Shown here in pieces: positions 26,300 through 55,421 of a stretch of DNA of 64,000 nt; position 1 is the stretch's first letter; each line of letters opens with the position of its first letter. The DNA lies in contig NZ_CP045302.1 of NCBI RefSeq assembly GCF_009363155.1, forward strand, positions 943,001-1,007,000, given 5' to 3'. The position numbers and the translations under genes are program-made. The stretch is from Azotobacter salinestris (lineage in GTDB: Bacteria > Pseudomonadota > Gammaproteobacteria > Pseudomonadales > Pseudomonadaceae). Below the pieces are notes generated by a model. The model saw nothing but the letters and a program-made list of their open reading frames with translations. It searched no databases and was not told where the DNA came from.

Positions 26300-26407
26300 G
26301 GTCGTTCTCCGCCGCGCCACCCGCACGGCCTGCAATCAGCGAAAGCGGGTGGGAAAGCGCTCAGGCAGAACCTGCCTGCAGCCTTCTCCGCGCCGCCAGA
26401 AATCGCG

Positions 26408-26612
26408 ACAGGCCGGTCTCCGGGCTCACGAGTGAAGCGCCATGCGGCGGCCTCCGAAACCACGCCTTCCCGTGCCCATGGGGCACAGTGGCCTTACTGC
26501 GGTTTCGCGACTCGTCTACCGTTGCGGGGGCAGCGCCGGCCTTGCACCGCGAATCGTCGCGGCACGCACCGGCTTCCCTGTTTCACCTTTCGAGAGAAAG
26601 GCACCTGAAGCG
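26408..26612 (-). promoter_or_regulatory. Cobalamin (adenosylcobalamin) riboswitch
   Basis: Read on the minus strand, all conserved elements appear in order: GGTGCC near 26606, GGTGAAACAGGGAAGCCGGT, GCTGCCCCCGCAACGGTA, the B12 box GCCACTG at about 26489-26495, GGGAAGGC, and the closing GAGCCCGGAGACCGGCC near 26410-26430. It lies about 110 bases upstream of btuB, the expected distance for control of translation or termination. It should control at least btuB-btuM-cobO and possibly the whole cobalamin unit. Confidence 0.95.
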
Positions 26613-26695
26613 AGGCGCGCAGGGTAGTGGAAACGCCGGCCGCGCACAATGGAACGAATCGTCCGGCGTCATGAACAGCGCTCATACGCTCCCTT

Positions 26696-33521: not shown

Positions 33522-33563
33522 CGAAAAAACAAAACCCCCGGTCGGGTTGCCGACCGGGGGTTT
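33522..33563 (-). terminator. Attenuator terminator upstream of DAHP synthase
   Basis: Perfect stem AAACCCCCGGTCGG / CCGACCGGGGGTTT with a GTTG loop (33532-33563). On the minus strand it is followed by TTTTGTTTTTTCGG, a textbook intrinsic terminator. It falls between the leader peptide stop (33612) and the structural gene, where an amino-acid attenuator should be. Confidence 0.88.
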
Positions 33564-33611
33564 GCGAAAACGTCTGGTGGCGACCCTGTTTGCCGGGGCG
33601 CCTGTGGGGTA

Positions 33612-33740
33612 TCAGGCGCGCCTGTGGCTAAACCAATACCCGAAGTAATAACCGGCAGCCGCGACCTGACGCGCACGACCCTGCGCAGTGCGCGCGGCAC
33701 CGGCGTGGACGAGGGACAGAAGATCGAGGCTGAGCGGCAT
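33612..33740 (-). CDS. Aromatic amino acid leader peptide for DAHP synthase
   Basis: 42-codon ORF. ATG 33740 has GGAG seven bases upstream (inside an in-frame ATG at 33752). The peptide begins MPLSLDLLSL and near its end reads GYYFGYWFSHRRA: six aromatic residues (three Tyr, two Phe, one Trp) within seven positions, immediately before the stop. The attenuator hairpin follows 49 bases later. This is the organisation of a ribosome-stalling leader that senses all three aromatic amino acids. I infer that stalling in the aromatic run allows an antiterminator. Confidence 0.8.
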   Translation of the reverse strand: MPLSLDLLSLVHAGAARTAQGRARQVAAAGYYFGYWFSHRRA

Positions 33741-47650: not shown

Positions 47651-47695
47651 CGTTCCCACCTCGCCTTGTGACGCAAAGCATCACCCTGCTCCCAC

Positions 47696-48257
47696 GCAGC
47701 GAGTTGCCCGGACATCCCCGGTGGAAAATCGCTTCGCGAGTTTTCCACCCTACGCGGAGTTGCGGCCACGTAGGGTGGACAACGGCGCAGCCTTGTCCAC
47801 CAATCAGGCAGGCAGCGGCCCACAAGATCAGTTCTGTAAGGTGGACAACGCTTCGCTTGTCCACCGACCATGGTCATGACAGGCACGAGGCTCAGGGAGG
47901 CAGCCCATGTCCAACTACCGCCGCGCCCGCGTGCCGGGGGCGGCCTACTTTTTCACGGTGAACCTGCGCGATCGGCGCAGCAAGTAGCCCGGGTATCCCC
48001 AGTGGAAAATCGCTTCGCGAGTTTTCCACCCTACGCGGAGTTGCGGCCACGTAGGGTGGACAACGGCGCAGCCTTGTCCACCAATCAGGCAGGCAGCGGC
48101 CTACAAGATCAGTTCCGTAGGGTGGACAACGCTCCGCTTGTCCACCGAGCATGGCCATGGCAGGCACGAGGCTCAGGGAGGCAGCCCATGTCCAACTACC
48201 GCCGCGCCCGCGTGCCGGGGGCGAGCTACTTTTTCACGGTGAACCTGCGCGATCGGC
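47696..48257 (+). repeat. 281-bp tandem duplication: REP cluster plus 5' end of the RAYT gene
   Basis: Two near-identical units, 47696-47976 and 47977-48257. Each holds GTGGAAAATCGCTTCGCGAG-type, GTAGGGTGGACAACGGCGCA-type and a third REP palindrome, then the start of the RAYT gene. The units join at a CGCAGC(A/G)AG microhomology. The copies differ at scattered positions. Confidence 0.88.
47907..47987 (+). pseudogene. Truncated RAYT copy (first 26 codons)
   Basis: Encodes SNYRRARVPGAAYFFTVNL and then stops with TAG where the second repeat unit begins. Differs from the full gene at one residue in this stretch (A for S). Created by the 281-bp duplication; no catalytic residues are present. Confidence 0.85.
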
Positions 48258-48721
48258 GCAGCGACCTGCTGGTGCGGGAGGTGGACCTGCTGCGCGCCAC
48301 GGTACGGGCGACCAAGGCGCGTCATCCCTTCCACATCGATGCCTGGGTGGTGCTGCCGGAACACATGCACTGCATGTGGACGCTACCGCCGGGCGACAGC
48401 GACTTCGCCCTGCGCTGGAAGGTCATCAAATTCGCCTTCTCCAGACGCCTGCCGGATGACGAGACGCACACGGCCGCACAGGCCGCCCGTGGCGAGCGCG
48501 GCATCTGGCAACGACGCTACTGGGAGCATTTGATCCGCGATGATCGGGACTACCAGCGCCACCTCGACTACCTGCACTACAACCCGGTGAAACACGGGCA
48601 TGTCGCACGGGTGGCGGACTGGCCGTGGTCGAGCTTCCACCGTGCGGTGCGCGAGGGGATCTATGCGCCGGATTGGGCGGGCGATGGAAGCGACGGTCGG
48701 GCAGGAAGTTGGGGCGAGTGA
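48188..48721 (+). CDS. REP-associated tyrosine transposase (RAYT, IS200-like)
   Basis: 177-residue single-copy HUH-type transposase of the RAYT class, which handles REP palindromes. The HUH pair is in LPEHMHCMWTLP, and the nucleophile Tyr region is YQRHLDYLHYNPVKHGHV. Start MSNYRRARV follows CAGGGAGGCAGCCC. It is flanked on both sides by REP palindromes with GTAG heads (47.7-48.15 and 48.74 kb), the arrangement expected for a REPtron. Likely functional. Confidence 0.9.
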   Translation: MSNYRRARVPGASYFFTVNLRDRRSDLLVREVDLLRATVRATKARHPFHIDAWVVLPEHMHCMWTLPPGDSDFALRWKVIKFAFSRRLPDDETHTAAQAARGERGIWQRRYWEHLIRDDRDYQRHLDYLHYNPVKHGHVARVADWPWSSFHRAVREGIYAPDWAGDGSDGRAGSWGE

Positions 48722-51267: not shown

Positions 51268-52365
51268 TTAACGCGGCAATCAAATTCACGATATAAAGAG
51301 GCATGAAAAAGATCGATGCCCGAAAGCTCTCTCGAGAAACTCAGGACCAGATGCGGCGCCTGGCCATGAATCTGCGTGAGCAGCGCGAACTGACTTGGCA
51401 AGAGGTTGCCGACGCATTGGGCGTACATCTGAGTACCGTACTAGCCTGGTCCAAACGCTACAGCGAGCAAGGCAGCGAAGGTCTGAAATCCAGGACACGA
51501 GGTCGGCGCCAGGCAAGCGGACGGACCTTGACGCTCGCACAGGAGTGGCAGTTGCGCTCGATTCTGGTGGGCCAGACCCCGAACCAGTTGCAACTCGACT
51601 TTGCCCTGTGGAACCGCCGGGCCGTCATGCAGTTGATCAAGCACTTGTATGGCATCGAGATGCCGATCCGGACGGTGGGTCAGTACCTTCAGCGCTGGGG
51701 ATATACCCCACAGCGGCCGACCCGGCAGGCGCTGGAACAGAACCCGGAGGCGGTCGAGCACTGGCTTGAAGAGACCTATCCGGCCATCGTGGCACGCGCC
51801 AAGGCCGAAAACGCGACGATCTACTGGGGCGATGAAACGGCCGTAGCTGAAGATGGGCATTGGATTCGAGGCTATGCGCCGGCAGGCGTCACGCCGGTGC
51901 TGGTGGCGCCGACTCGGCGTCATGGCCTGAGCATGGTCTCAGCGATCAGCAACCAGGGACTGGTACGGTTCGAGTTCCTGGAGGGGGCCATGAATACTGA
52001 GCGGATGATCGGTTTCATGTCGAGGCTGGTGGCGGACAGTGACAGGAAGATCTTTCTGATCCTGGACAACCTGCGTGTCCATCATGCGCGTCTGGTCAGG
52101 GAATGGCTCGAAGGGCACCAGGAAGAAATCGAAGCGTTCTACCTGCCACCCTATTCGCCTGAGTGTAATCCGGACGAGTATTTGAACCGCGACCTCAAGA
52201 CACGCTTGCGCACCAGTGACCGGGCGCGAAACAAGTCGGAATTGCTGGAGAAGGCCGAGGCATTCATGAGCTGGTTGGCCAAAACCCCGGAGCGGGTAGT
52301 TGCCTATTTCCAGCATGCGTCGGTGCGTTATGCCACTTAGATTGGGTATTTGATTGCCGGGTTAA
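51268..52365 (+). mobile_element. IS630-family insertion sequence, complete
   Basis: 1098-bp element. Ends read inward: TTAACGCGGCAATCAAATT on the left and TTAACCCGGCAATCAAATA on the right, flanked by TA on both sides (51266-51267, 52366-52367), as expected of IS630/Tc1-mariner insertion into TA. One intact transposase ORF. Its ends resemble those of the MITE at 45463. Confidence 0.9.
51303..52340 (+). CDS. IS630-family transposase (DDE)
   Basis: 345 residues. N-terminal helix-turn-helix with EVADALGVHLSTVLAW; catalytic D in IYWGDETAVAED, D in FLILDNLRVHHA, and E/D in YSPECNPDEYLNRDLK. Intact; probably active. Confidence 0.93.
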   Translation: MKKIDARKLSRETQDQMRRLAMNLREQRELTWQEVADALGVHLSTVLAWSKRYSEQGSEGLKSRTRGRRQASGRTLTLAQEWQLRSILVGQTPNQLQLDFALWNRRAVMQLIKHLYGIEMPIRTVGQYLQRWGYTPQRPTRQALEQNPEAVEHWLEETYPAIVARAKAENATIYWGDETAVAEDGHWIRGYAPAGVTPVLVAPTRRHGLSMVSAISNQGLVRFEFLEGAMNTERMIGFMSRLVADSDRKIFLILDNLRVHHARLVREWLEGHQEEIEAFYLPPYSPECNPDEYLNRDLKTRLRTSDRARNKSELLEKAEAFMSWLAKTPERVVAYFQHASVRYAT

Positions 52366-54203: not shown

Positions 54204-54543
54204 GGAAACCTCCTCGATATGACGGCCTCCATGATGCGCGATTGCAGGCCTTTCGATCACGTTCGGGGTTTCGATCGCGCCTACGCAGAGCGAGCGATCG
54301 GGTTCGTAACGCCTTGCCATGCAGGCCTACAGCCAGTCATGGCGGCGACTCTATCCGTTCGGACTTTTCGTACGGAACCCAACTTGGCCGTTCGTAGAAT
54401 TCCGTTGCTCATGGGCCACTTTGTGCTTTCGTTGATGTGTTGCAGAGAAAAAGCCCGTAGTAGCAAATGCATGACAGTGGAATATCAAGACTAGCCTGGC
54501 GAGGGCTCTACACCACTATCGAAACGGCACTGAGGAGACAGTC
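54204..54543. other. Spacer upstream of the 16-residue-repeat gene
   Basis: About 340 bases. Short frames only, no palindrome of the REP family. It must hold promoters for the CAP gene (minus) and the repeat gene (plus). Nothing specific recognised. Confidence 0.45.
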
Positions 54544-55287
54544 ATGGAAAACATCAATCAATGCCTGAAGGGATTTCAGGAGCAACTGGAACACCTTCAG
54601 AACAATGCGGCGCTGAAAACTCTCCAGGAGCAGATGGAAAATTTTCAGAAGAATGGCGCACTGAAAGCGATCCAGGAGCAGATGGAGCACTTACAGAGCA
54701 ATTCGATGCTGAAAACGCTCCAGGAGCAGATAGAGCAACTTCAGAACAATCAGGTGCTGAAGGGATTTCAGGAGCAGATGGAAAAATTCCAGTGCAATCC
54801 GCTGCTGAAGGAGTTTCAGGAGCAGATGAAGTGCTTTCAGAACGATCCGGAGCTGAAAGCGCTCCAGGAGCAGATGGAGCAACTTCGAAACAATCCGGTA
54901 ATGAAGGGATATCAGGAGCAGATGGAGTACTTTCAGAACAATATGGAGCTGCAAGCGATCCGCGAAGAAATGGAGAAACTGCAAAACAACCCGGTGCTGA
55001 AAGCGCTCCAGGAGGAGATGGAACACCTGCAGAACAATCCGGCGCTGAAAGCGATCCAGGAAGAAATAGAGCAATTTCAGAATACTGAGGCACTGAAAGC
55101 GATTCAGGAGGAAATGGAGCACTTTCAGAACAACCCGGCGCTGAAAACGTTCCGGGAACAGATAGAGCATCTTCAGAACAACCCGGCGCTGAAAACGATT
55201 CAGGAGGAGATGGAACACTTTCAGAACCATCCGGCGCTGAGAGCGATTCAGGAGCAGATGGAGCAAATCCAGCAAAAACCGGCCTGA
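54544..55287 (+). CDS. Protein of fifteen 16-residue helical repeats, no recognised family
   Basis: 247 residues: a three-residue start, fifteen tandem copies of a 16-residue unit (residues 4-243) and QKPA. The unit consensus is NNPALKAIQEQMEHLQ, with Leu/Ile at fixed positions, Gln and Glu conserved, and an Asn-x-Pro helix cap every 16 residues. Period 16 does not fit a continuous coiled coil; it suggests an array of short helices. ATG has GAGGAG upstream; a terminator follows. No signal peptide, so cytoplasmic. GC is clearly below that of its neighbours. Function unknown. Confidence 0.75.
   Translation: MENINQCLKGFQEQLEHLQNNAALKTLQEQMENFQKNGALKAIQEQMEHLQSNSMLKTLQEQIEQLQNNQVLKGFQEQMEKFQCNPLLKEFQEQMKCFQNDPELKALQEQMEQLRNNPVMKGYQEQMEYFQNNMELQAIREEMEKLQNNPVLKALQEEMEHLQNNPALKAIQEEIEQFQNTEALKAIQEEMEHFQNNPALKTFREQIEHLQNNPALKTIQEEMEHFQNHPALRAIQEQMEQIQQKPA
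54553..55272 (+). repeat. 48-bp tandem repeat array within the gene
   Basis: Fifteen units of exactly 48 bases (about 54553-55272), diverged at DNA level but in register, with CAGGAGCAGATGGA as the best conserved block. All frames stay open across the array on the coding strand in several places, giving spurious ORFs. Confidence 0.85.
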
Positions 55288-55382
55288 ACCACAGGCGCAG
55301 CGCTAGCCCAGCGCTTGCGCAAAGGCACACCGCTGCCCCGCTCCCACGCAGCCTGGTGGGAGCAATCATTCAAGCGGGCAAT

Positions 55383-55421
55383 AAAAAACCGCCGGCAGGT
55401 CCGGCCTGCCGGCGGTTTTTT
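55383..55421. terminator. Bidirectional terminator
   Basis: AAAAAACCGCCGGCAGG / CCTGCCGGCGGTTTTTT with a TCCGG loop. Serves the repeat-protein gene (plus) and the convergent HPF-like gene (minus). Confidence 0.93.

Follow-up and report, generated by a model that had tools for sequence, protein, structure and literature searches.

The repeat gene of the window, by which we mean the whole 64-kb stretch of DNA that was analysed, encodes a protein in which fifteen 16-residue units follow one another without a gap from residue 4 to residue 243, an array that is kept at the same length and in an open frame in three Azotobacter species. We tentatively read the product of this gene as a single-copy, soluble, cytoplasmic helical-repeat protein that may work as a multivalent folded scaffold, the job of which would probably be to hold many partners or a surface at once. 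The features on which this reading draws are collected in Table 1.

Table 1. Features of the repeat gene, its surroundings and its relatives (window positions, unless another locus is named)
Feature	Coordinates	Strand	Remark
Coding sequence of the (predicted) fifteen-unit helical repeat protein	54544..55287	+	247 aa; ORF with ATG start
Array of fifteen 48-nt (16-aa) units	54553..55272	+	consensus NNPALKAIQEQMEHLQ; without indels
AGGAG, probable ribosome-binding site	54533..54537	+	precedes the ATG; kept in three species
Upstream stretch conserved with the gene, probable promoter/leader	54379..54543	+	
Palindromic terminator-like sequence after the gene	55383..55421		
Block shared with A. chroococcum DSM 2286 at another chromosomal place	54381..55317	+	L009 4838-5775, 90% identity
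Antisense frame open over the whole array	54554-55369	-	271 aa
Second sense frame open within the array	54561-55088	+	175 aa
Pseudomonas sRNA P15 (Rfam)	33535-33654	-	
Cobalamin riboswitch (Rfam)	26394-26623	-	
Array-SH3 relative L020	L020 799-1962	-	
Array-SH3 relative L021	L021 41-1141	+	
Array-SH3 relative L022	L022 1465-2658	+	
Array-SH3 relative L023	L023 763-1860	-	

The repeat array and its predicted helices

The first-pass annotation had described fifteen 16-residue repeats over residues 4-243, and both the gapless division into units and the periodicity of the protein agree with it: identity at a lag of 16 residues is 0.563, as against a mean of 0.098 and a maximum of 0.173 in 10,000 composition shuffles, and 0.059 at a lag of 11. 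At the DNA level TRF recovers a 48-nt period from 54577 to 55265 (14.4 copies, 73% matches). The DNA units are diverged, with a mean unit-unit identity of 0.72, and between units of one gene pS is 0.54 and pN 0.22. The gene has a GC content of 0.49 vs 0.67 in the window, and a GC3 of 0.68 vs 0.80-0.93 in the four genes with which it was compared. The abundance of Q, E, N, K and L in the protein brings the second-position GC down to just 0.18; hence, amino-acid composition explains much of the low GC. The earlier description of this composition as foreign is right in that it is unusual, but the foreign origin is weakly indicated, given that synonymous divergence resembles that of the four compared genes.

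The consensus of the unit runs N1 N2 P3 A4 L5 K6 A7 I8 Q9 E10 Q11 M12 E13 H14 L/F15 Q16. Counted over the 45 units of the three species (15 per species), the proposed NNP cap stands as a consensus but is not invariant (N1 and N2 in 35 units each, P in 25). The hydrophobic strip comprises position 5 (L in 42 of the 45 units, M in the other 3), position 8 (I, F, L or Y throughout), position 12 (M, I or L throughout) and position 15 (L, F or I throughout). The polar positions are about as constant as this strip (compare L5, 42/45), with K6 kept in 40/45, Q9 in 41/45, E10 and E13 in 43/45 each and Q16 in 42/45. That these polar residues are constant though synonymous sites have diverged between units points towards specific packing, and the joint constancy of polar and strip positions suggests that the units dock on each other or on a specific partner, and not merely on lipid.

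In the window's protein the hydrophobic moment points nearly the same way (125-150 degrees) in all fifteen units, with per-unit moments of 0.39-0.63, mean hydrophobicities of 0.20-0.47 and a net charge of 0 to -3 per helix. Over 16 residues an unbroken helix would turn the strip by ~160 degrees from one unit to the next, which makes such a helix unlikely and the breaks important. With all fifteen units (3 rows), AlphaFold2 predicted fifteen helices of 13-18 residues, mostly 14, in step with the units (best mean pLDDT 69, pTM 0.22), and with seven units (8 rows) it predicted seven helices (best mean pLDDT 74, pTM 0.31). These models support one predicted helix of about 14 residues per unit and, together with the uniform moment direction, accord with the chain of short amphipathic helices foreseen in the first-pass annotation; they contain no credible prediction of how the helices pack in tertiary structure. 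Foldseek returned no PDB match for either model, and a search of viral folds gave one chance-level match to the seven-unit model. The GRAVY of the array protein is -1.05 to -1.12, and from its highest 19-residue hydropathy of -0.36 we infer a cytoplasmic location.

Conservation and genomic setting in Azotobacter

Three of the four compared Azotobacter genomes, the window's own included, carry the repeat gene, the named orthologues being those of Azotobacter vinelandii CA (94% identity) and A. chroococcum DSM 2286 (90%). All three copies are 247 aa long and have fifteen units, no indel and an open frame, so that unit number and frame, which the first-pass annotation had expected relatives to maintain, are indeed kept in both orthologues. 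The gene was not found in the fourth genome, G002, a draft of ~180 contigs with a completeness of 100; its absence from one genome in four implies that it is dispensable for the genus.

Between species the coding frame has a dS of 0.26-0.30 and a dN of 0.025-0.05, with a dN/dS of about 0.08-0.2, and to judge from these substitutions the sense frame is under purifying selection; together with the unit-unit DNA identity this bears out the earlier view that the DNA repeats have diverged and that selection keeps the protein pattern. Among the other five frames, dS lies above dN solely in the antisense frame that shares wobble positions with the sense frame (frame -1; dS 0.17-0.21, dN 0.03-0.06), and it does so because of this sharing. 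The 271-aa antisense frame (frame -2) has a dS of 0.02-0.07 and a dN of 0.087-0.098, a pattern that appears free of constraint; both here and in the other open sense frame (+2) dS is below dN in all three comparisons. Similar antisense frames of 271 and 259 aa are found in the two sister species.

For comparison we used the HPF-like, U32 peptidase and CAP genes beside the window gene and the DUF4432-like gene next to the copy in A. chroococcum, which have a dS of 0.19-0.40 and a dN of 0.042-0.110, these dN values possibly being somewhat inflated, as the genes were taken stop to stop and are partly truncated. The dN of the array gene is the lowest of the five in two of the three comparisons (own-vinelandii and vinelandii-chroococcum); between the window's own species and A. 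chroococcum three of the four comparison genes have a dN below its 0.050, and hence it is not slow-evolving throughout. In this latter pair its dS is 0.255 vs 0.19-0.23 in the comparison genes, and the similarity of its dS to theirs argues against a recent arrival in these species. In 15, 14 and 14 of 15 cases a unit finds its best cross-species match at its own position in the array, which implies that the array is old and frozen, and nothing points to recent exchange of units or a recent change in copy number among the three species. As tandem arrays commonly change copy number, a perfectly regular array of fifteen predicted helices that is frozen in three species is unusual.

Both in the window and in A. 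vinelandii, the repeat gene is flanked by a CAP-domain gene on one side and an S30AE/HPF-like gene on the other. A. vinelandii CA additionally has what we take to be an IS4-like transposase gene (L008 3227-4747), which separates the CAP gene from the conserved upstream stretch. The CAP/HPF-like site is empty of the repeat gene in A. chroococcum and likewise in G002. The A. chroococcum copy lies between what we take to be a DUF2790-like ORF and a DUF4432-like gene, and at the corresponding place in the window's own genome the matching pieces are separated by no more than ~80 bases. A comparison of the block ends found neither an exact inverted repeat of 9 bases nor an exact direct repeat of 8 bases. 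The terminator-like palindrome is also present in two empty sites, and therefore belongs to the locus and not to the block.

The upstream sequence (54379-54546) is 88 and 85% identical to that of the other two species, with 18-20 of 20 positions identical in each of its three best 20-nt blocks, and the ~165-base stretch gives one match per genome in three of the six searched genomes, those with the gene. Neither a sigma-70-type consensus scan nor an AlgU-type scan of this stretch found a site. Positions 54379-54470 can be read in all three species as a hydrophobic peptide, VRRI-x-LLM-x-HFVLSLMC, coding and promoter conservation being indistinguishable at this length. Elsewhere in the window, ~2 kb before the repeat gene, there is a 345-aa ORF (51303-52340, +) that we take to resemble an IS630-type transposase, and a 281-bp unit is present in two tandem copies with 95% matches at 47695-48262, overlapped by an ORF that presumably resembles a REP-associated tyrosine transposase.

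Family searches and relatives of the array

A Pfam listing up to E = 1, in which the HMMER filters drop most matches above about 0.1, contained no phasin, STI1, LEA, SH3 or solenoid model for the repeat protein, and NCBIfam up to E = 1 contained no phasin model; searches of NCBIfam, PHROGs, PADLOC and PDB sequences gave nothing convincing. These models give no support for membership in the phasin, STI1/HOP-DP, LEA or alpha-solenoid (TPR/HEAT/ARM) families, and the affiliation with phasins or STI1 modules envisaged in the first-pass annotation was not borne out; it is possible all the same that the protein works like phasin, LEA, STI1 or TPR-class proteins. STI1/HOP-DP and Sgt2-type modules have short helices with Asn-Pro caps and a high content of Met, Gln and Leu, which can bind hydrophobic helices. 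The Azotobacter protein shares such NP-capped helices, predicted to be short and rich in the same residues, but is set apart by its strict 16-residue tandem array. With TPR-type alpha-solenoids it has in common short predicted helices with tight turns; it differs in having one 16-residue helix per repeat, and no solenoid family or PDB fold matched it.

Several matches were rejected. DUF6757 scored 29.7 vs a cut-off of 27 (E 7.1e-7) over 25 of 54 model positions, and GlutR_dimer 23.0 vs a cut-off of 22.9. When the columns were permuted, one control out of nine exceeded a cut-off and seven matched at E up to 0.001 (best 9.4e-9), from which it follows that such matches come easily with this composition; we take both as probable composition matches, although the real protein has two passes. 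An ARM_CPL3 match in one of eight members of A3 (E = 0.0049) was no better than the permuted controls, the PHROG matches (best E 4.1e-5) covered short stretches and are of unknown function, and the best matches among PDB sequences were weak and to designed helical proteins. A match in G041 (E 6.1e-4) has eight stops inside, and array matches in the own and sister genomes lay on the antisense strand. A Bradyrhizobium plasmid match lay on the strand opposite to an annotated gene, its source being an ORF of short tandem repeats (L027 5755-6789, -). No relative of the repeat gene was found in plasmids and phages by DNA or in phages by protein, and L023, L022 and L020 retrieved nothing from plasmids, nor L022 from phages. 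Viral contigs were searched with the repeat gene and two relatives; patterns matched in 2/3 and no relative was confirmed. PADLOC matched none of five proteins (the repeat protein and four relatives) at E up to 0.01.

In the window's bacterial family, the profile built from the three orthologues matched in 7 of 398 genomes at E up to 1e-5, namely the three Azotobacter genomes and four (of the 394 other genomes) belonging to one other genus, which from family and gene content we take to be Pseudomonas or a close one. In even samples, as distinct from complete surveys, of the class (369 genomes, E up to 1e-5) and the phylum (349 genomes, profile A3, E up to 1e-6) the window's own genome was the one match. 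The orthologue profile scores the four relatives, L020 to L023, at 35.8-45.3 bits. When the order of the unit columns was permuted 200 times, the real scores of L020, L021 and L022 were never reached and that of L023 was reached at least once, which supports a motif-specific resemblance to the array for three of the four relatives and does so less firmly for L023. The reverse search from L023 matched 14 of the 398 genomes and recovered the three Azotobacter genes at 6.6e-9 to 4.5e-7, two of these three matches extending past the stop of the repeat gene; most of the remaining new matches are confined to the SH3 side of the query. Seven units of the Azotobacter array can be aligned with L022 and L023 without an internal gap, and BLASTP between the repeat protein and L022 gives 22% identity across 155 residues, the single gap being 3 residues long and close to the end. 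The earlier statement that the protein is unlike any family thus holds with respect to named families, but not with respect to these uncharacterised array relatives.

The relatives are typified by tandem helical-type units, of 16 residues in L020, L022 and L023 and about 19 in L021. L022 and L023 share the NPALKA-type start of the Azotobacter protein, whereas the units of L020 start NPxYL. All four have a C-terminal SH3_3 match, that of L022 being below the curated cut-off (22.3 vs 27), preceded by a hydrophobic segment with a 19-residue hydropathy of 1.74-2.21. The Azotobacter protein resembles this array-SH3 class in its tandem 16-residue helical units with an N/S-P start, the likeness being weakest for L023, but has neither the hydrophobic segment nor the SH3_3 domain, and consists of fifteen units and nothing else as against about 6-9 units in the relatives. 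The similarity rests on the repeats, and could reflect convergence on a helix-break-helix rhythm.

L022 adjoins a DUF4238 gene followed by a UvrD-like helicase; L020 adjoins Fic/DUF4172, with a PP2C-like gene further on; and L023 has a DUF4062 gene about 3 kb away, in surroundings that we take to include UmuDC-like and phage-lysis-like ORFs. Our impression is that the settings of L020, L022 and L023 are island- or prophage-edge-like. Together with further frames of the same bacterial family (in L030, L031, L034-L037 and L039-L041), L020-L023 belong to a varied, uncharacterised set of proteins that have a helical-looking N-terminal region, a hydrophobic segment and, at the C terminus, an SH3-like part. 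Clear repeats of 16-22 residues are seen in some, e.g. L037, and some lie near integrase-like, Fic or UvrD-like genes.

Possible roles of the array protein

In the scaffold interpretation each 16-residue unit would form one amphipathic helix of about 14 residues, with an NN(P) N-cap followed by the hydrophobic strip at positions 5, 8, 12 and 15, the residues at 4 and 7 being small for the most part. Thanks to the breaks, the fifteen helices would show the same face repeatedly, and by packing on each other the helices could form a regular ribbon or superhelix along which low-affinity sites of much the same kind recur, to be bound by a partner protein or a hydrophobic surface. The Azotobacter form is the array alone, the nearest relatives having the same kind of array placed before a membrane-type segment and an SH3_3 domain. 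We place this scaffold first, as a tentative preference, followed in order by a phasin-like coat, a protective role and former island cargo.

It is unlikely, in our estimation, that the protein is a phasin-like coat whose amphipathic helices rest flat against PHB granules or some other hydrophobic surface, with repetition giving avidity. The strip is one-sided in every unit, as the moments given above attest, and the available part of one study describes PHB storage by A. vinelandii, whose phasins PhbP1, PhbP2 and PhbP3 are 186, 179 and 203 aa long, PhbP3 (avin34720) being reported there as having no conserved domain and clear orthologues limited to Azotobacter (PMC11511541). The repeat protein and these phasins are alike in being small, helical and amphipathic and in belonging to the same organism. 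However, neither Pfam nor NCBIfam gave a phasin model (there is no family match of the Phasin_2 kind), avin34720 is far from the estimated locus tag of the repeat gene (see below), and no pha gene was recognised by eye among the ORFs around either chromosomal place. Moreover, the helices carry a net charge of 0 to -3 with a low mean hydrophobicity, and the polar-face residues are conserved about as well as the strip; as a loose surface coat would not obviously need constant polar residues, we favour it less.

We consider it improbable that the array is a LEA-like protective protein of encystment or desiccation, with helices that form on drying and shield membranes or proteins. LEA group 3 proteins are hydrophilic and have repeat-built amphipathic helices. 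The repeat protein is likewise hydrophilic, as its GRAVY indicates, and is built of repeats with predicted amphipathic helices, but its period is 16, not 11, and Pfam up to E = 1 has no LEA model for it. The AlgU-type pattern (GAACTT-N16-TCTGA, up to 2 mismatches, N16 spacer only) has 4 matches in the window vs 5.5 expected, none of them near the gene. The A. vinelandii gene occupies positions 1816026-1816769 of NC_021149, and from the anchors Avin_17860 (a CHAD protein), Avin_18010 (dctB) and Avin_18740 (a CoA-transferase) we estimate that its locus tag lies between about Avin_1816 and Avin_1830. Here the dctB anchor is presumably the A. vinelandii ORF 1790795-1792573, to judge in part by adjacency. 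Azotobacter cysts are desiccation-resistant and a LEA-1 protein is AlgU-dependent, according to the accessible part of PMC10651043, Table 3 of which gives the 'conserved hypothetical protein' Avin_18160 a fold change of 0 in the algU mutant under encysting conditions. The estimated range brackets Avin_18160, so that identity with the repeat gene is possible, if unproven; yet linear interpolation places the gene nearer Avin_18280, and no predicted AlgU promoter is shown for Avin_18160 in that part of the paper (PMC10651043).

Less probable again is an origin as former island cargo, in which the protein would be a soluble derivative of membrane-anchored array-SH3 proteins with a role in stress or phage defence. 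Such a descent is consistent with the array similarity to L020-L023, with the island-type genes directly adjoining two of the three inspected relatives (DUF4238 with the UvrD-like helicase, Fic/DUF4172 with the PP2C-like gene) and with the presence of the ~0.94-kb block at two different Azotobacter places, each with empty counterparts. Against it, the repeat protein has neither hydrophobic segment nor SH3 domain, PADLOC matched neither it nor the four relatives, and phages, plasmids and viral contigs gave no match bar the one on a plasmid that is antisense to an annotated gene; the block ends lack the exact repeats sought, and synonymous divergence resembles that of the four compared genes. 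Lastly, that the array is a by-product of DNA repeat expansion, open by chance and with no protein function, is highly improbable even though the antisense and second sense frames are open too, given the purifying selection indicated for the annotated frame, the dS below dN in both alternative frames and the unchanged unit number in three species.

The scaffold interpretation can be extended to a new class of repeat, in which a natural solenoid of frozen unit number would be fifteen repeats deep, each repeat contributing a single 16-residue helix. Azotobacter would have this solenoid as a scaffold free in the cytoplasm, and related bacteria would have it in genomic islands as an array tethered to the membrane; we regard this extension as doubtful. 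We found no paper describing the repeat protein in the literature covered, most subscription journals and supplements being outside that coverage. In Azotobacter, which serves as a model of aerobic nitrogen fixation, encystment and PHB storage, the array gene encodes a conserved protein of the genus to which no family is assigned. If the one-helix solenoid is true, it would be a simple natural scaffold that designers could copy, and if the granule coat is true, a previously unrecognised granule protein; the relatives, for their part, hint at a wider uncharacterised array-membrane-SH3 family.
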